From positions 558,001-622,000 of the forward strand of contig NZ_ATUV01000001.1 of assembly GCF_000420385.1 (NCBI RefSeq): DNA of 64,000 nt, given 5' to 3'. The stretch is from Hippea alviniae EP5-r (GTDB taxonomy: Bacteria > Campylobacterota_A > Desulfurellia > Desulfurellales > Hippeaceae). The notes below the pieces were generated by a model, which worked only from the letters and a program-made list of their open reading frames with translations, was not told the DNA's origin and ran no database searches. The position numbers and the translations under genes were made by a program. This document shows positions 6,377-20,498 of this stretch, piece by piece; the stretch's first letter is position 1, and every line of letters begins with the position of its first letter.

Positions 6377-6644
6377 CTTTTTCCTTCTTTATTCTGAAGT
6401 ATAACGTGATTGTCGCTAAAACTATCATGAAGCCTATGGTATTTGCACTTATTAAGACGATGTCTTTTCTTAATAATCCATAAACAATCCACAGAACCAA
6501 GCCAACGGCTATTTGCACCATCATAAGAAGACTTAAACCCTTTGTTTGTCTTGTTTTTAATAGCTTTAAAAACTGTGGAACAAAGCTAAAGGTTGTCAAA
6601 GCCGCCGCTGTAAAACCTATAACATTGATGAGCCTTGCGTCCAT
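6366..6644 (-). CDS. SemiSWEET-type (PQ-loop) small transporter
   Basis: A 92-residue membrane protein with three predicted helices (about 8-28, 40-60, 65-85) and the PQ signature FSFVPQFLKLLKT near residue 20-32. Bacterial SemiSWEETs are triple-helix bundles that dimerise to carry sugars down a gradient (family knowledge). The substrate cannot be read from sequence. It is joined to its neighbours by a TAATG stop-start with the RACo-like gene and an 11-nt overlap with xth. No sugar-metabolism gene is nearby. Confidence 0.85.
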   Translation of the reverse strand: MDARLINVIGFTAAALTTFSFVPQFLKLLKTRQTKGLSLLMMVQIAVGLVLWIVYGLLRKDIVLISANTIGFMIVLATITLYFRIKKEKDGV

Positions 6645-8110
6645 TAAAATCCCATGCTCTCTATGTAAAGTTTTTCAAACTCGCTCTCGTTTGCAATCTC
6701 TAAATACTCTATTTTCTGACTAATTCTCTCAACCTTCTCCCTGTTCATTTTACAGAACAGCCTTAGGCTGCCAGCCAAAGAGCTGTTTCCAAGCATAACA
6801 AATTCACCGTCAAAAGACAACAGGCTGCTTTTTAAAATCTCTTCTTTGGCTAAGGATTTTGAAAACCCACCAGCTATGTATATTCTCTTTGGGATTTTTA
6901 AATCTGTTTTTTTGAGTATAATTTTTAATGCAGCGTTGAGAGATGCCTTAACGAGCTGAAAGTTTCTTATAGAGTTTTGCGTTAGATATATGTTTTTATC
7001 AAGCAAAAACCCTTCTTTTTTAATGCGGTTTATCAGGCTAAACGGTGCTTCTGTCTCCCATGCTTCTAAAAGTCTGCCTTCATTATCGATAATCTCAAAC
7101 TCTCTTAGAAGTGCTATTGAGCTTATAAGTCCTGAACCTGTTATTCCTATGGCTGGTTTGTCGTTTATTGTGTAAACCTTGAAGGTATCCTTAAACTCAA
7201 CCTTGTATATTGCACCATCTTGGGCAATTGTTCCATAATCTATGTTCGCACCTTCCAATGCTGGTCCTGCTGGGACGCTCGATGCAAAATAGCTATTGTC
7301 CTTCTTTAAAATAAACTCACAGTTTGTCCCTATGTCTATAAAAAGGTAATCTTTATCTTCTGGTAAAATAGAGAGTGCTGCTGTTATATCTGCACCGACA
7401 AACGCACTTACAACAGGTGGAATATAGAGCTTTGAGCTGAATAGTTCGCCTTCAAAACTTCCTTTAAATGGTGGTGTGTATGGATATTCGCCGATTGGTT
7501 TTGGGTCTTTTTCAAGTAAGAATGTAAGCATTGTTGGGTTTGCAGAAACCACAATTGACTCTATCTTGTTTGCACATAGAGAGCTTATCGTCTCCTTTAG
7601 AGCCTTTTTTAATGATTCAGCTAAGACTTTCAAGTTTCCTTCATTTGAATACGCTATTCTTGATATCACATCTGCGCCGAATGCTACCTGCGGATTTAGT
7701 ATATGTGCGGTTTTGAATAGTTTTCTGTTTTTGATAACAGCTACAGCTATGGTTGTTGTTCCTATGTCAATTGCAACATGCGTTTTTTCATCGTCAGAGC
7801 ATACTTCGGCATCAAACTCTGCAAACACAGGCTTTGCAAGGCTAACTTCTATCTCTGCGTCGTTGTTTAAGCTGTGAAGACAGGCAAGCCTGTATCCTTC
7901 TTCTGTTTTTTTGCCAAAAGTCTCTTCTTCCAGTTTTAAAGTTTTTGGTGCATTTTTTGTAAATTTAACTATACACTTTTTACATATACCACGACCAGAG
8001 CAATATGCGTTTATGTATATGCCGTTTGAATGGAGCAGTTTTAGGAGATTTTCCTTTTCTGAAAACTCTATCTCTTTTGTTGAACCGTCAACCTTTACTG
8101 TGAGTTTCAT
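6644..8110 (-). CDS. RACo-type [2Fe-2S] ASKHA ATPase (corrinoid-protein reductive activator, DUF4445)
   Basis: A 488-residue protein with an N-terminal plant-type [2Fe-2S] domain (C37, C43, C46, C77) fused to an acetate/sugar kinase-Hsc70-actin fold with the phosphate motif DIGTTTIAVAV and later DIGTNCEF and AGGFS segments. Relatives (RACo, RamA) use ATP to drive electrons to oxidised Co(II) corrinoid proteins such as methyltransferases or methionine synthase. I take the ATG at 8108-8110; an upstream start at 8146 would add 12 unconserved residues. It has no corrinoid protein beside it and heads a housekeeping operon. A poor -35/-10 pair (8141-8146 and 8118-8123, minus) would make it nearly leaderless. 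Confidence 0.87.
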   Translation of the reverse strand: MKLTVKVDGSTKEIEFSEKENLLKLLHSNGIYINAYCSGRGICKKCIVKFTKNAPKTLKLEEETFGKKTEEGYRLACLHSLNNDAEIEVSLAKPVFAEFDAEVCSDDEKTHVAIDIGTTTIAVAVIKNRKLFKTAHILNPQVAFGADVISRIAYSNEGNLKVLAESLKKALKETISSLCANKIESIVVSANPTMLTFLLEKDPKPIGEYPYTPPFKGSFEGELFSSKLYIPPVVSAFVGADITAALSILPEDKDYLFIDIGTNCEFILKKDNSYFASSVPAGPALEGANIDYGTIAQDGAIYKVEFKDTFKVYTINDKPAIGITGSGLISSIALLREFEIIDNEGRLLEAWETEAPFSLINRIKKEGFLLDKNIYLTQNSIRNFQLVKASLNAALKIILKKTDLKIPKRIYIAGGFSKSLAKEEILKSSLLSFDGEFVMLGNSSLAGSLRLFCKMNREKVERISQKIEYLEIANESEFEKLYIESMGF

Positions 8111-8134
8111 AGGCAGCAATTTACAAAAAAGACT

Positions 8135-8163
8135 TTGAAAAATCAAACCTTATGGTTTAGAAT
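8135..8163 (+). promoter_or_regulatory. Sigma70-type promoter of the Uma2/glycosyltransferase pair
   Basis: The -35 element TTGAAA (8135-8140) and -10 element TAGAAT (8158-8163) are 17 nt apart, each one mismatch from consensus. The spacer and -10 edge hold a short inverted repeat, AAACC-TTAT-GGTTT (8145-8158), where a repressor could bind. A strong GGGGGG ribosome site follows before the ATG at 8187. Confidence 0.6.
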
Positions 8164-8792: not shown

Positions 8793-9332
8793 ATGAGTTA
8801 TCCAAATATTTTTCAGCTCTGGTATGGATATGATGATACTATACCAAAGAAGTATGAGATATTTATAAAACATAACAGCAAGATTTTTGCTCAGATAGAA
8901 TCATACAAGCTTCTTAAAACAAGCCAGATAAATAGATTTCTCGATGAGTTTGGATATGATTTATCGAAATTTAAGGGTTTTCATTTCAGATTTCAGTCTG
9001 ACATAATAAGATTTTTGCTGCTTTACCATTATGGTGGCCTTTACCTTGACCTTGATATTAAATTGAGCGACAATTTTTTTGAGTTGCTTAACATTTTGCA
9101 GACGGAGTTTGAAGGTAAAGATGCAATGCCTTCAAACAAGCGGATTTATTTTTTATGGTTTCAGAAAGGTTCAGAGAATCTAAGAAAGATGATCAATTAC
9201 TATATGTCGCTTGAGTATTTAGATTATGATTATAATGTCTTTTCCTTTAGTAAGATTAATCTTGAAAACATTGAGTTAATATCAACAGATAGACTTAATC
9301 TTTACCTGAAGCACTTTGTTCTTTCTGGCTGA
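8793..9332 (+). CDS. Small DXD-type glycosyltransferase (Gly_transf_sug/OCH1-like)
   Basis: A 179-residue protein with the family's N-terminal PNIFQLWYG and the core FQSDIIRFLLLYHYGG followed by LYLDLDI, which carries the metal-binding DXD. Relatives add sugars to capsule, LPS or glycoproteins. It is shorter than the usual 230-300 residues and stops soon after the core, so it may be a trimmed or partly decayed member. The 3' end overlaps eptA tail-to-tail by 38 nt. The acceptor is unknown; adjacency to eptA hints at the cell envelope. Confidence 0.8.
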   Translation: MSYPNIFQLWYGYDDTIPKKYEIFIKHNSKIFAQIESYKLLKTSQINRFLDEFGYDLSKFKGFHFRFQSDIIRFLLLYHYGGLYLDLDIKLSDNFFELLNILQTEFEGKDAMPSNKRIYFLWFQKGSENLRKMINYYMSLEYLDYDYNVFSFSKINLENIELISTDRLNLYLKHFVLSG

Positions 9333-10932
9333 GTTTTTCTCTGCAAGGATAATACATATCAAGCTTAGGATTGTAAATCTTTGTTTTTACATCCATTAGA
9401 CCGAGCATTGTGTCAAATACATAGTCCTGACTGTAAGGTTTGTCTTCGAGTTTTTTTGCACATTTTAAATCTATACCAAAATCCTTAGAGAACCAAGCAA
9501 CAGAAGCCGGATGTTTCTGAACATCGGGTGCTATGAAATACGGAAATCCATGCAGGTAAATTCCGTTTTCTCCTAAGCTTTCGCCATGGTCTGCCACGTA
9601 AAACATTCCCACTCTGTATTTTTTCTCATTTTTTTTCAGAAACTTTATTACATCGCTCAAAAATTTGTCAGTATATAAAATTGTATTGTCGTATGCGTTT
9701 ATTACTTCTTGCCTTGTGCAATCCTGAAGCTGGTTTGTTTTACAAACTGGCTTGAATTTTTCGAATTGCGGTGGATATCTCTTGTAATATGCAGGGCCGT
9801 GTGAACCCATTTGATGCAAAACGATAAATATAGGCCTATTGTTGTGAATGTTGTTTATCCAGTCTTGAAGTTTGTAAAGCAGGACTTCATCATAGCATCC
9901 AAACTTGTTGCAGTATGGTTTTATGTGGGCTGATGTAAAATCTTGATAGTTTTTTATCCTTACAGCAACACCTTTTGAGTCTGAATTATTCTCACGCCAC
10001 AAGACATTTACTCCAGCTCTTTTTAACACATCCATCAAAGAGTCTGTGTGTCTTGCCTTTTTGACTGAGAAATTTTTTCGTGTATAGGGAGAGAACATGC
10101 ACGGGACACTTACGGCAGTCTCAGTGCCGCATGAGTGCATATCTGGGTAATCTAATAAATCTTTTATCTTTTCGAGATTGGGGTTTGTATCTCTTTTATA
10201 TCCGTTTAGTGAAAAATGGTCATACCGTGCAGCTTCACCAACAACAAAGATAAATAGCTTAGGTTTTCCTTCCGTTTGTGCAAGGTGAGCGTCAAGTGCG
10301 ATGTGTCTAAACTTAATGGGTTTGGTTAAATATCTTTTTCCTATGTATTCACCGAAGGAGTACATGTAAAATGTTGGGTTCGAATACATCCTTAATCGTT
10401 TGTGAGTTCTAAAGAAGGATGCCCAAGTTCTTGGAAAAACAAAGTAGAGAATTGGTATGAGTATAAGGTTTAATGCAAAAAGCTTGAGTCTAACCTTTAT
10501 CTCGTCCTTTGGTTTTCGATATTTTACTTTTGTTTTGAGAAGGATTATTGAAGGCAAAATACCCAAGAATAGAAGCATTAAGAACATTTTTATATTCAAA
10601 AGGTCTAATACTTCTCTTTTGTCAGTTTCGAAAATGTTTTCTATCATTTTTGAGTTTATGATTGTTGAGTACTCCTGCATATAGTATGCGGCAAGCGAAG
10701 CGGTTATAAACAGGAATATCAAGAAGGGCTTTAATGTGTATTTGTTGGCTATTATGTAAAGTGCTGTTGTTATCGTAATAAACAGCAACAGAGCCAAAGC
10801 CAGCATAAAAAATATATTTGGAAAAGCTGTGAAAGATTTGCTAAAAAAAACCCAATTGTAAGCTATAATCATGAAGATTGTAGATATTACGATGACTTGA
10901 GTTTGAGTTGCTTCAAGTTTCAATCTTTTCAT
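9295..10932 (-). CDS. eptA: Lipid A phosphoethanolamine transferase (EptA/MCR-type)
   Basis: An inner-membrane enzyme that moves phosphoethanolamine from phosphatidylethanolamine to lipid A or core sugar, lowering negative charge. The 545 residues have about five membrane helices (12-30, 38-60, 68-84, 113-133, 150-168) followed by a periplasmic sulfatase-fold domain. Active-site parts visible are VVGEAARYDHF (Glu233), CGTETAVSVPCM with the nucleophile Thr (Thr272), and DHGESLGENG with metal ligands. Several paired cysteines fit the family's disulfides. It lies behind the mcp terminator. A second lipid A-type transferase gene (34162-35685) is elsewhere in the window. Confidence 0.94.
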   Translation of the reverse strand: MKRLKLEATQTQVIVISTIFMIIAYNWVFFSKSFTAFPNIFFMLALALLLFITITTALYIIANKYTLKPFLIFLFITASLAAYYMQEYSTIINSKMIENIFETDKREVLDLLNIKMFLMLLFLGILPSIILLKTKVKYRKPKDEIKVRLKLFALNLILIPILYFVFPRTWASFFRTHKRLRMYSNPTFYMYSFGEYIGKRYLTKPIKFRHIALDAHLAQTEGKPKLFIFVVGEAARYDHFSLNGYKRDTNPNLEKIKDLLDYPDMHSCGTETAVSVPCMFSPYTRKNFSVKKARHTDSLMDVLKRAGVNVLWRENNSDSKGVAVRIKNYQDFTSAHIKPYCNKFGCYDEVLLYKLQDWINNIHNNRPIFIVLHQMGSHGPAYYKRYPPQFEKFKPVCKTNQLQDCTRQEVINAYDNTILYTDKFLSDVIKFLKKNEKKYRVGMFYVADHGESLGENGIYLHGFPYFIAPDVQKHPASVAWFSKDFGIDLKCAKKLEDKPYSQDYVFDTMLGLMDVKTKIYNPKLDMYYPCREKLSQKEQSASGKD

Positions 10933-10985: not shown

Positions 10986-11006
10986 AAAGGCGCACAGGGC
11001 GCCTTT
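10986..11006 (-). terminator. Rho-independent terminator of the 11006-13018 chemoreceptor gene
   Basis: Perfect 8-bp inverted repeat AAAGGCGC/GCGCCTTT with a 5-nt loop (10994-10998). On the minus strand it is followed by GTCTTTTT. The upstream arm overlaps the mcp stop codon, so transcription should end before eptA. Confidence 0.85.
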
Positions 11007-13018
11007 TAACTTATTTTGTATTTTGAGACAGTTGCTGCTATCTGGTTGGCTTTTTCAAGGAGCTGTTTTGATTTTATCTCAACGCTGTCAGCAACATTTG
11101 ATATCTCTTTTGTTGCTATTTTTATATCCTTTGCTTGGTTTTCTATCTCTGAATATGTTGCAGATAACTCTTCTATCGCAGCTACAATATTGTTGAATTG
11201 ACTGGATGCGCTTTCCATCTCTTGACCGATTTCGTTGAGAATTTCTTTAACTTCTTCTGTATGTAGTTTGCCGTTATATGCTGACTCTTCGCTCTTTTTT
11301 GAACGTCTTACAGCTTCGTCAACATCGAGTTGAATCTTCTTTATAATCTCTTTGATATCTTGAGTTGAATGTTGTGTTTTCTCGGCTAATTTTCTCACTT
11401 CATCTGCAACAACGGCAAAACCACGACCAGCTTCTCCTGCTCGTGCTGCTTCGATTGCAGCATTCAGAGATAGAAGGTTTGTCTGCTCTGCTATGTCGTT
11501 TATCACATTAACTATCTCTCCTATCTGTCTTGAGGTGTCATACAGCTTCTTTATGGCTTTTGCTGTGCTTTTTGCGTTCTCTTCAAGTTCGTCCATTACC
11601 GAACTTGCAGTCGTAATTTTATCTATACCATTTCTTGTGTTCTCAACAATATTTTCAACAAAGCCGCTTACTTCTTCTGTGTTTGATGCTATGCTGTCAA
11701 CAGCTTCTCTAACATCGTTTATAGAGTGGTTTATTACTTCCATCTTCTCTTCAATGTTTTCCATACTTGATTTTAGTTGATTGCTTGATGCGGAAAATTG
11801 TTCTGCAGAGCTTTGTATATCTATTCCAATTGACTTGAGTAATCTTACAGCTTCTGCTCTTCTCCTTGTAAATTCATTGAACTTCTCTGTTATCTTACAT
11901 ATTTCGTCATTTGATGCTTTCTGAAGGTATATCGTCAAGTCGTAAAGAGATTTATCGAATGCTTCAACCAGTTTGTTGATTCTTCCTACAACAGATTTTG
12001 CAAACAGGGTAGAGACAACGAGGGCAATAATAATCATACCTATGAATGCTATAATTGATGATTTTAAGATTGACGATACTATCGGCATAGTAAAGTCTTT
12101 GTTTATTACTTTTACTCCGATAATATAATGCAGTGGAGCGAAATACCTAAAAGCGACTGTTCCTAAAACACCTTTAAATTTGTATTGAATGATTCCATTT
12201 TTCTCTTCGATCATCTTTTTTCCAAAAGAGAAACCTGAAACATTCTTTCCTATTAAGCTTTTATCGGGATGGACTACAGTTGTTCCTTTGTCGTCAATTA
12301 TGAATGCATAGCCTCTCTTTCCTATTCTTATGGATGCGAGAGTTTTTTGTAGTTCATCTGCGAACTTTTTCATGCTAACACCAACAAACAAGATGCCTTC
12401 AACTTTTCCAGCAACTCTTATCGGTTTGTATGCCGTTATGTAATATCTATCAACAACATAGGCTTTTCCATAGTATGTTTTACCTTTCAGGACGGTTTGA
12501 GCAACGACTGATGAGTTTGGTATATATGTTCCTATGGCTCTTCTACCGTCTTTGTATCTTATGCTCGTTGACACCCTTACAAAACCATCTTTAAATCTCT
12601 GAAATATCGTTGCTTTTGCACCTGTTAATTTTGTAATTTCATCTGTAAGCTGATTGTTTACCGTTAAAATCTTCTCACCAGCAAGTAGAATCGGTATTTC
12701 AATTGTCTCTGTTTCGTGTGTTATCTGGTTGACAGCTTTAATTGTTATTTTGTTGTCTGATAGTCTTACAGGTCTATTTCCTATGGCCATCATCCAAGCA
12801 ACATCTAAATTTTTCTTTAATGTATTTTGAAGGCTATTATAGGTTGATTGAACGAACTTTAAAGCAAGCTCATCTTCTGATTTTATAGTTGTTATGAGCA
12901 GTGGTTTCATACCACTTTTTGACAAGTTAATGGTGAAAATAGAGCCTAAAAATACTATAAGAATGCCCGTTAAAAATATTGCGGCAGTTATTTTTGCCCG
13001 TAAGCTTACATTTTTCAT
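11006..13018 (-). CDS. Methyl-accepting chemotaxis protein with periplasmic Cache domain
   Basis: A 670-residue transmembrane chemoreceptor. It has an N-terminal helix (about 9-31), a periplasmic Cache-type domain with a [19 protein letters not shown] strand and a [17 protein letters not shown] segment, a second membrane helix (about 315-335), a linker/HAMP-like region and a cytoplasmic signalling coil. The conserved hairpin tip, with [20 protein letters not shown] and [16 protein letters not shown], contacts CheW and CheA. There is no C-terminal NWETF tether. The ATG at 13016-13018 follows GGAGGG. The ligand is unknown. Its own promoter and terminator make it monocistronic. Confidence 0.95.
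11412..11461. repeat. 50-bp block identical to one in the second chemoreceptor gene
   Basis: These 50 bases match 19216-19265 exactly. They encode the chemoreceptor hairpin tip in both genes. Flanking bases diverge at once on both sides. Confidence 0.85.
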
Positions 13019-13217: not shown

Positions 13218-14246
13218 ATGGGCGAGAAGGAGAAGCAAGAAAGATTCGAAAAATTAGACGGGGCTCATCTTTTATGGGCAAGCACAATGGGTGCAACTTT
13301 CGATTTAGGTATTATGAGTAAAGCTATGTTAATACCATCGATGAAAACCGCAGCTCAAAGGCTTGCTCGCTACCAGATGCAGAAGGGAACTTTCCCTTTT
13401 ATAGATGGAAAAGAATTGAACACGGAACTTTATAAGGAAATTTTAGATAATCTAAATGATTTTATGTTTTTTGCTAATGGGTATGAAGTTGAAGGTGATG
13501 ATAAGAGTATAACAATAAAAATCCACAAAGATAGATGTATGTATTGTCCAACCGGTGTCGGAGGTGCTTTGCTTGGGACAACTATCTGTCCTTACCCGCA
13601 GCTGTTTAGCGTGTATTTAGACATGATAATAAAAAACGGCTTTTATTATAAGTCTGTTGATATGGTTAAACAAGAAGATGGTTCATATATGAGAAGGGAA
13701 GGAGAATGGGATATTATAGAGTTTAATCTGAACCATGATGAGAATTTTGAGAATATAGTTAACATACTATTTGAAGCTGTAAAAAGGGTTCAGGATACAT
13801 TTGAAAAGGCGATAAGTGATGGTGTTATAACAGAAGAAGATTTGTGGGATAGAAACTATGTTCCTATAGAAAACACGAATCCACAAAAATACAATACAAA
13901 ATTTACAGATTTTGCCAAAGAGTATATTCAACCAATAGAAGATGAAATTCTCAAGAAACATAAAAAGTTTGCTTTTGCTATCATAGTTGATGACAATGGT
14001 TATGCACCTGCACACAACTCAATTTATGATAAACCTTTAACTGGCGATTATAAAAAAGATTTGATAGGCAATCGTTCAAAGAGAATATTCAATGACTTTA
14101 CGGGTATTTCTGCTGCTAAAAATACAAGAAAGTATCTTCTTCAATCCTATCCAAGAGATGTTGGTGTTTTAATGTTTGACATTTCGTCCGAAATAAAATT
14201 GAGGGATAAGCATTGGGGAGCCTTTAGAATAGGCTTTAAGATTTAA
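13218..14246 (+). CDS. Soluble sensor-like protein with Cys-x2-Cys motif and chemoreceptor-type C-terminal domain
   Basis: A 342-residue cytoplasmic protein whose function I do not recognise. I start at the ATG at 13218, 7 nt after AAGGAGG; an upstream TTG would lengthen it without support. Residues 1-200 form an unfamiliar domain with C107-x2-C110 and C124 in CMYCPTGVGG and TTICPYPQ. Those cysteines could hold a metal or cofactor. The last about 95 residues (DNGYAPAHNSIYDKPLTGDY, then GNRSKRIFND, then KHWGAFRIGFKI) resemble a domain I know from the ends of some methyl-accepting chemotaxis proteins, here without any signalling coil. It has no signal peptide or membrane helix. A chemoreceptor gene is divergent upstream and a Roadblock gene follows 64 nt downstream. 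Confidence 0.6.
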   Translation: MGEKEKQERFEKLDGAHLLWASTMGATFDLGIMSKAMLIPSMKTAAQRLARYQMQKGTFPFIDGKELNTELYKEILDNLNDFMFFANGYEVEGDDKSITIKIHKDRCMYCPTGVGGALLGTTICPYPQLFSVYLDMIIKNGFYYKSVDMVKQEDGSYMRREGEWDIIEFNLNHDENFENIVNILFEAVKRVQDTFEKAISDGVITEEDLWDRNYVPIENTNPQKYNTKFTDFAKEYIQPIEDEILKKHKKFAFAIIVDDNGYAPAHNSIYDKPLTGDYKKDLIGNRSKRIFNDFTGISAAKNTRKYLLQSYPRDVGVLMFDISSEIKLRDKHWGAFRIGFKI

Positions 14247-14310: not shown

Positions 14311-14673
14311 ATGAAAGAGGAACTTATAAACAGAACGCTTCAAGAGCTTGTTAATTCATCTCAGAATATAGAAGGAGCTGCTTTGGTTACAGCTGATGGT
14401 TTAATGATAAGTAGTTATTTACCGTCTGATATGGACGAGGATAGAGTTTCAGCTATGAGTGCAGCTTTGTTATCTTTATCTGAAAGGGCCGTTGAAGAAC
14501 TTGAAAAAGGCATCCCGCAACAGGTTACAATTAAAGGTGACAAAGGTTATATTGTAATAACATCCGCAGGCGAAGAAGCTGTTTTGATGGTTATTACAAA
14601 CGACAAAGTAAAACTTGGTCTTCTTTATATGGAAATTAAAGGAGCTGCGGAAAAAATACAAAAAGCTTTTTAA
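14311..14673 (+). CDS. Roadblock/LC7 domain protein (MglB-like)
   Basis: A 120-residue single-domain protein. The fold signature is clear: N-terminal helix, then NIEGAALVTADGLMISSYLP, a long helix with SAALLSLSERAVEELEKG, and the strands QVTIKGDKGYIVIT and EEAVLMVITND. Such proteins form homodimers that act on Ras-like GTPases, as MglB does on MglA in gliding and polarity control (family knowledge). No MglA-type GTPase gene is in the window. GGGAGG precedes the ATG. Nine bases separate it from the EamA transporter gene, so it leads the transporter operon. Confidence 0.87.
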   Translation: MKEELINRTLQELVNSSQNIEGAALVTADGLMISSYLPSDMDEDRVSAMSAALLSLSERAVEELEKGIPQQVTIKGDKGYIVITSAGEEAVLMVITNDKVKLGLLYMEIKGAAEKIQKAF

Positions 14674-18812: not shown

Positions 18813-20486
18813 TCATACTTTGAATTTTCTTACAAGGTCTGTAAGTCTCTCTGAAGCGGTTTTAAGTTGCTCAGAGAGTGATGCAATCTGCTCTGCTACT
18901 TTTGCGTTGTCTTCAGCTGCTTGTCTTATCTCTTGGGCCTGAGCGTTTACTTCTGATACGGTTGAAGAGAGCTCTTCTGTTGCAGCAGAAGTTGAGTTAA
19001 TCTCTTCTATTGTCTTTGAAATCTGCTCAACCATAGAGTTTATATTATTCTCATCTTCTAAAGCCTTTTCTCTCTCTTTCAGTATGCCTTCTTCTGCTTC
19101 TTTTGTCATCTCTATGGACTTTTGGGCATCCTTCTGCATCTTTACAATCATCTCTCTTATCTCTTCAGTTGCCCTTTGTGTTTTTTCTGCCAACTTTCTT
19201 ACTTCATCGGCAACGACGGCAAAACCACGACCAGCTTCTCCTGCTCGTGCTGCTTCGATTGCAGCGTTTAGAGCAAGTAGGTTTGTCTGGTCTGCAATTT
19301 CGTTGATTACATTAACGATTTGGCCAATCTGTTTTGACGACTCTCCAACTTCGTTAATCTGTTGCATTGCTTTTCTTGCAAGTTCTGCATTTTTGTTCAT
19401 TCTCTTCACGCGCTCTTCTATATCTTTAAGCATTTGTTGGTTGATTTCGCTTACCGTTTCGGCTTGCATATTAATACCTTCTGTTGATTGTGCCACATTA
19501 TTTACAGCTTCTGCCATGTCGTTTACGGCTTGAGCCATCTCTTCAAGGTTTCTTGTTGTTTCTTCAACTGTCGATGCCATTTCGAGAGCAGATGATGCTG
19601 TTGTTTCTGATTTGTTCATGACATCTTCGGCGGAGCTTCTTATGTCTTTTACGAGTTGTTGTATTGTGTCAAGGAAATTGTTTAATTTATTAGCGAGATT
19701 CTCAAACTCATCTCCTGTATCTATTTTAACTCTTTTTGTTAAATCACCTTCTCCGCTCTCTAAGTCTTCAAGTTCTTTAGCCATGAGATTTATTGGTTTT
19801 ACCAATTTGTTTGCTAAAGCTGAACCTATTAGGGCAATAACAATCAATGCTGCGATGGCAACTATAATAGAGACGATAATTGAGCTCAGCATTTCTTTCT
19901 CTATTTTCTTTTTGTAGGCTAAAGCTTCTTTTTGAACATCATCTAAATATACTCCGCTTCCTATAATCCAATTTAATTTTGGAATTGTTTTTATGTAGGA
20001 GATTTTAGGTGCCACACCTCCGCCTGGTTTAACCCACCAGTAATACACAAATCCGTTACCTTTTGTTTTTGAAATTTGAATCATTTTTTGAAATAGGTAT
20101 TCTCCTTTTTTATCTTTTACATTTATGACATTTTTACCATTTAGCTGTGGTTTTGGTGGGTCCAATATCATTGTGCCGTTTTGGTCAATCACAAAGAAAT
20201 AATTTCCATTATCGTATCTTATTTTGCTTAAATCCTGAATAATTTCTTGCTTCACAACATCTATTGGTTTGTTCTCTTTTAGTATACAAGCGATGTATTT
20301 TGATGAGACTTCCTCAACAAGTGTTTTTACTTTGTGTTTTTTTAATCTTAGGAGTAAGTCATAAGTGTTTTGATATCTTACATTTATTTGTTTGATGTTC
20401 CACCATACAGCGTAAATACCGAATATAAGAAGAAATATTAGTACAGAACCAATGCCGTATGCTATCAGTTTTCCTTTGAACTTCAT
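18813..20486 (-). CDS. Methyl-accepting chemotaxis protein with sCache_2 domain
   Basis: A 557-residue chemoreceptor. It has an N-terminal helix (about 10-30), a periplasmic single-Cache domain with [19 protein letters not shown] and a YYWWVKPGG segment typical of sCache_2, a second helix (about 200-222), a HAMP domain ([19 protein letters not shown]) and the methylation and signalling coil with the conserved hairpin tip. I choose the ATG at 20484-20486, which AGAGGTG precedes, over a GTG at 20495. It begins 12 nt after the cyuA stop. No pentapeptide tail. The ligand is unknown; sCache_2 domains often bind small carboxylic acids. Confidence 0.94.
19216..19265. repeat. Second copy of the 50-bp block shared by the two chemoreceptor genes
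   Basis: Identical to 11412-11461 and in the same coding position. See the note there. Confidence 0.85.
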
Positions 20487-20498
20487 TTTAGTCACCTC

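Follow-up and report, generated by a model that had tools for sequence, protein, structure and literature searches.

A 342-residue protein encoded in the genome of Hippea alviniae EP5-r is, judged by its sequence, a chimera of two sensory modules, since its N-terminal domain is also found alone and its C-terminal domain is also found at the C-termini of methyl-accepting chemotaxis proteins (MCPs). The N-terminal module likely belongs to the TRAPPC3(Bet3)/V4R/H-NOX/BcsD superfamily, as indicated by its modelled structure and by profile comparisons, and the fused gene is repeatedly found beside a gene for a Roadblock protein. The analysis was computational throughout: it identified the gene and its two domains, a site conserved at four positions, a predicted fold and the neighbourhoods in which the gene occurs. 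The window refers to the whole 64,000-nucleotide stretch that was analysed (contig NZ_ATUV01000001.1, positions 558,001 to 622,000), and its relevant features are as follows.

11006-13018, minus strand: divergently transcribed MCP with Cache_3-Cache_2; relatives do not keep it at this position
13218-14246, plus strand: fused gene, predicted TRAPPC3/V4R-superfamily domain plus chemoreceptor-type C-terminal sensor domain, 342 aa
13218-13736, plus strand: N-terminal domain, residues 1-173; predicted TRAPPC3/V4R/H-NOX/BcsD fold (AlphaFold, Foldseek, V4R profile match)
13536-13547, plus strand: CxxC (C107, C110), the first two ligands predicted for the metal site; invariant in 23 relatives and aligned with CVWC of Thorarchaeota TRAPPC3
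13587-13589, plus strand: C124, third predicted ligand, directly before the next helix; CxxC-x13-C spacing as in Thorarchaeota TRAPPC3
13710-13712, plus strand: D165, predicted fourth ligand, where the last strand begins; hhalign pairs it with the final zinc-type Cys in V4R
13740-14243, plus strand: C-terminal domain, about residues 175-342, with a long helix and a PAS/Cache-like fold; elsewhere in these genomes confined to the C-terminal ends of MCP-length frames
14311-14673, plus strand: Roadblock/LC7 (MglB-like) protein, 120 aa (PF03259, 2e-21); 64 bp downstream of the fused gene with no predicted terminator between

The fused gene and the distribution of its N-terminal domain

The open frame at 13218-14246 starts at an ATG preceded by an AGGAGG ribosome-binding site that was rated good. 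The gene is real and is conserved throughout the order, at 17 loci. The fused copies, full-length or truncated, fall in two families and are 54-82% identical to the window protein; family f2 is called Desulfurella-type here, which is an inferred label. The copy in genome G012 (L149:272-1089) contains in-frame stops and has apparently broken ends while the Roadblock and V4R genes downstream are intact; it is read as either a gene in decay or a misassembly. The product is soluble. A family-model search detected no MCP signalling domain (PF00015, MCPsignal) in the window protein, which also has no membrane segment or HAMP domain, in agreement with the preliminary description of a sensor-like protein that lacks a signalling coil and membrane segment. 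The architecture proposed there, a chemoreceptor-type end domain joined to an N-terminal domain outside the curated families, is supported on both counts. Residues 1-200 matched no Pfam or NCBIfam model, and searches of Pfam, NCBIfam and PDB sequences with the window protein and with its family returned nothing significant. Of the two outcomes that were to refute the preliminary reading, neither was seen: the N-terminal region is placed in no known enzyme family by Pfam or NCBIfam, and relatives do occur beside Roadblock genes.

Residues 1-173 also occur as stand-alone proteins of about 160-195 residues in which the C-terminal domain is absent altogether. A third family of the class contains them (G019, G021 and G023), as do G068, 10 of 36 genomes in the family of G263 and 5 of 136 genomes in the phylum of G321. 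For G068, the search of its own phylum covered two genomes only. A plasmid search with one stand-alone relative gave no match. A sweep of 386 genomes detected the domain in 23 of them; the family is real but patchy in its distribution.

Predicted fold of the N-terminal domain

AlphaFold modelling of the N-terminal domain from 23 diverse sequences gave good overall confidence (pLDDT 86), the cysteine-bearing loop being the lowest-confidence part. The model contains helices at residues 3-12, 15-30, 32-56, 69-83 and 126-141 and a sheet with strands at 90-93, 97-103, 146-149, 158-161 and 164-172, which gives a predicted topology of four helices followed by beta-beta-alpha-beta-beta-beta. TRAPPC3/Bet3-type TRAPP subunits, BcsD (AxCeSD) or H-NOX proteins constitute 46 of the 50 best Foldseek matches in the PDB, with E values of only 0.006-0.2 and TM-scores of about 0.5. 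Both BcsD and H-NOX have been named as structural relatives of Thorarchaeota TRAPPC3 (PMC10933270).

Profile comparisons point in the same direction. Profile-profile alignment (hhalign) of the N-terminal domain family with V4R proteins, nearly all of them from the class of the window organism, gave a score of 31.1 (E 3.6e-4), as against a mean of 12.7 and maximum of 22.6 in 200 column shuffles and 14.2 for the reversed alignment. Control alignments of the family with the unrelated Roadblock (E 0.32) and GTPase (E 0.49) proteins were also run, and a second V4R subgroup gave no signal (E 0.25). The link to V4R is carried mainly by the stand-alone relatives, since the fused subset alone fails against V4R (E 0.07). 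The Pfam V4R model (PF02830) matches none of the 17 or 23 members, and the Pfam TRAPP model likewise leaves the family unmatched. A fragment of Thorarchaeota TRAPPC3 scores 12.9 bits against the family profile, a value reached by 0 of 1855 scored shuffles and by 0 of 1910 shuffles that preserve the cysteines (maximum 11.0). In an hmmsearch of the whole PDB, however, the same match has an E value of just 0.42, with spurious-looking matches placed above it, so that this weak sequence match should be read as support and not proof. TRAPPC3 is marked by glycine pairs in its helices 2 and 5 (PMC2253512), and the alignment of the N-terminal domain family has no glycine pair in the helix after C124. 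Taken as a whole, the fold assignment is fairly strong: the predicted structure, the fold search and the profile comparison place in this superfamily a domain that had first been described as unknown.

The closest solved relative is Thorarchaeota TRAPPC3 (Bet3; PDB 7YH2/7YH3), which shares with the N-terminal domain its helices and four-stranded sheet as predicted, and whose genomes also contain Roadblock proteins and small GTPases. It differs in having only about 12% identity to the window protein, which is bacterial and fused to a PAS/Cache-like domain. The V4R proteins (PF02830; the PoxR/MopR sensors and MJ1460) similarly share the superfamily fold and an aligned last-strand ligand, but differ in the Pfam match that the N-terminal domain lacks and in the arrangement of their ligands. 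V4R has C-E-C-C, with two ligands after the helix, versus a CxxC before the helix in the N-terminal domain; its pattern of C-x22-E-x2-C-x7-C is not found in this family, which has CxxC-x13-C...D/C. Ordinary V4R proteins of this class have the other arrangement, for example C117-E140-C143-C151 in G020.

A conserved four-position site

The three cysteines reported in the preliminary description are positioned as stated, at C107, C110 and C124, and none of them varies among 23 aligned relatives, the most distant of which are 18% identical. One correction is that the metal-type site has a fourth position, which in the window protein is Asp165. This position is Asp in the family of the window protein and Cys in the stand-alone and Desulfurella-type members, which make up most of the total. 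The core CxxCPxG[VI]G...CP[FY]P is invariant in 23 of 23 sequences, and this invariance rules out a cysteine motif arising by chance. Spacing from CxxC to the third cysteine is x13 in 20 of the 23 sequences and x15 in the other 3.

The same CxxC-x13-C spacing is present in the Thorarchaeota TRAPPC3 sequence (...ITDDNCVWC-QEVNLEGMRGFGY-C...), and its relative 7YH2 has a later Cys in DSCIW. The bacterial site resembles an Asgard-type CxxC-x13-C...C with spacing identical to 7YH3 and with a later predicted ligand at a matching place, where the window protein has D165 and the majority of other lineages have Cys. In the Thorarchaeota TRAPPC3 structure four cysteines hold a zinc; zinc sites of this type are structural and fasten helix D to the sheet (PMC10933270). 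By analogy, the CxxC-C-D/C site would hold a metal, most likely a structural zinc. A redox switch is less likely on the same analogy, since the matching zinc site in the closest solved relative is structural, and the redox proposal is the weakest part of the first reading.

The C-terminal domain and neighbouring chemoreceptors

A match between the end of the protein and chemoreceptor end domains had been noted earlier and is correct, but the domain comprises about 170 residues (170-342) and not 95. It is 52-57% identical to the C-termini of chemoreceptors in the window genome and about 46-63% identical to MCP ends within the same genomes that carry the fused gene. The only other architectures observed for this domain are MCP-length frames, including one frame in a distant genome that was read as an MCP. 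A fold search with the full-length model, which mainly saw the C-terminal domain, indicated a predicted structure resembling PAS/Cache sensors. Chemoreceptors with a C-terminal PAS/Cache-like domain resemble the window protein in these 170 residues, but the latter has a TRAPPC3-like domain in place of the membrane segment, HAMP and MCP signalling domains. The C-terminal domain of the window protein is cytosolic.

The divergent chemoreceptor at 11006-13018 is present as described, but the window genome alone has it at that place. Among congeners with a readable upstream region it is absent at that place, and on these grounds we rejected it as a partner; it is probably outside the module. A second MCP about 4.6 kb downstream (18813-20495) is common to most congeners and is located on the opposite strand past the MlaEFD genes. 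No chemotaxis gene is conserved directly beside the fused gene in the loci compared. Elsewhere in the window, an EptA/EptB-type phosphoethanolamine transferase (9295-10932; PF08019, PF00884) is not found here in the congeners that were read. A RACo-type ASKHA protein whose N-terminal domain is of the 2Fe-2S type (6644-8146) is a conserved neighbour of the locus across most of the genus, and a protein similar to it (L075:4400-5944) is near the stand-alone copy in G068, together with MlaEFD-type genes.

Roadblock, GTPase and V4R genes in the neighbourhood

Proximity to a Roadblock gene, which had been pointed out for the window, is a conserved property as Roadblock adjoins 13 of the 17 fused loci. 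It is the next gene in all nine loci of the genus (83-92% identical), and the adjacency extends to one further genus of the family and to the three Desulfurella-type genomes. In all three of the latter, Roadblock precedes the fused gene and there is a convergent Ras/MglA-type GTPase together with a receiver-like protein. The Ras/MglA-type GTPase of the window genome (G000:C1:409229-409750) is about 160 kb from the fused gene, and at that locus (L115:8223-9778) a degenerate receiver protein overlaps the GTPase start. Roadblock is not adjacent in nearly all of the stand-alone relatives or in the remaining four fused loci, which come from two related genera and have a molybdopterin oxidoreductase operon downstream. 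In these genera (L040:1981-10190, L041:8727-14181) the fused gene is just upstream of genes for a molybdopterin oxidoreductase, an iron-sulphur protein and a NrfD-like membrane protein, as if it were co-transcribed with a respiratory enzyme.

Stand-alone N-terminal domains and true V4R proteins also occur in such settings. The order in G068 is histidine kinase, Roadblock, stand-alone N-terminal domain and receiver-DUF4388; in G012 it is fused gene, Roadblock and V4R; and in G021 a V4R gene is located between genes for a Ras-like GTPase and Roadblock. In G020, from a sister family, a compact operon of five genes (L117:5230-8218) encodes a receiver-like protein, a Ras/MglA-type GTPase, a divergent Roadblock-like protein, a Roadblock protein and a V4R protein (PF02830, 1e-16), the last of which occupies a slot equivalent to that of the window gene. 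The family profile found no N-terminal domain copy in this genome, and the operon is a clean example of a V4R protein inside a GTPase module. This filling of an equivalent operon slot in sister genomes is a further likeness between V4R and the window family. In part, the loci also resemble MglA/MglB polarity modules and Streptomyces conservons, through a Ras-like GTPase gene coupled to Roadblock in the three Desulfurella-type genomes and, beside V4R, in G020, and through receiver- or DUF4388-type partners; they differ in their TRAPPC3/V4R component, which is absent from the papers found on those systems. Asgard small-GTPase genes are said to be generally outside operons with these regulators (PMC10933270), unlike the window gene which is encoded beside Roadblock.

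Proposed function and alternatives

We propose, with about an even chance of being correct, that the window protein is soluble, senses a ligand, contains a structural zinc site and feeds a Roadblock/small-GTPase switch. The protein would probably be a dimer with two inputs. In the N-terminal domain the CxxC-C-D/C site would hold a metal that joins the beta-sheet to the helix after it and shapes a pocket inside the domain, where a small hydrophobic ligand would bind, while the PAS/Cache-like C-terminal domain would add a second, cytosolic input. Hydrophobic ligands are bound in this fold by TRAPPC3 and PoxR (PMC10933270). Binding of ligand may alter how the protein contacts its co-encoded Roadblock partner, which in turn would tune a Ras/MglA-type GTPase; together with the receiver-like protein, this GTPase would constitute a polarity- or motility-type switch. 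Two reports on such switches (PMC3441718, PMC6785124) describe the Roadblock protein MglB as the GAP of MglA and, in Myxococcus, a response regulator that couples a chemosensory system to the MglA/MglB switch. For our protein we infer the metal, the ligand, dimerisation, Roadblock binding and the effect on the GTPase.

Several other functions were weighed against this one. The cysteines could be a redox switch or an iron-sulphur site, with the N-terminal domain sensing redox state or oxygen and relaying this through the chemoreceptor-type domain. A CxxC and Cys accompanied by invariant prolines, and the location of the gene before a molybdopterin oxidoreductase operon in two related genera, fit such a role, as does the fourth-position Asp, a residue that is among the ligands of some iron-sulphur clusters. 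However, equal spacing holds zinc in the closest solved fold (PMC10933270), and the Cys/Asp swap speaks against a disulphide partner at the fourth position, so that we regard this function as unlikely. Haem or nitric-oxide sensing of the H-NOX type is suggested by the H-NOX structures among the best fold matches and is very improbable: H-NOX needs a proximal His for haem, the alignment of 23 contains no conserved His column and H-NOX-type haem binding was rejected on this basis.

The protein could instead be a chemotaxis accessory that acts or competes with MCPs having the same end domain, with its Roadblock neighbour being incidental. The identity of the C-terminal domain to MCP ends in the same genomes and the two genera without an adjacent Roadblock would be expected from such a role; yet the protein lacks a helix bundle that could signal to CheW or CheA, chemotaxis genes are not conserved at its side and stand-alone N-terminal domains occur without the C-terminal domain, all of which make it improbable. 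A more far-reaching version of a GTPase-linked role, in which the family is a bacterial counterpart of the TRAPP core with a TRAPPC3-like dimer and Roadblock partners directly regulating a Ras-like GTPase upon binding of a lipid or small ligand, is quite doubtful.

Implications

Papers that combine V4R or TRAPPC3 with Roadblock or MglA amount in substance to the Asgard study in the open literature, and V4R is not mentioned in the GTPase survey. The domain family, the fusion and the bacterial neighbourhood link all appear to be undescribed in the open literature, and the N-terminal domain family is absent from Pfam and NCBIfam. In eukaryotes, TRAPPC3, Roadblock/longin proteins and Rab-like GTPases belong to the TRAPP and Ragulator machineries, and the prokaryotic ancestry of these parts is an open question. 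Recurrent bacterial neighbourhoods of TRAPPC3/V4R-type, Roadblock and Ras-like GTPase genes would make a functional link among them directly testable outside the Asgard archaea, and would provide an input component that has been missing from MglA-type switches, which are widespread and poorly understood.
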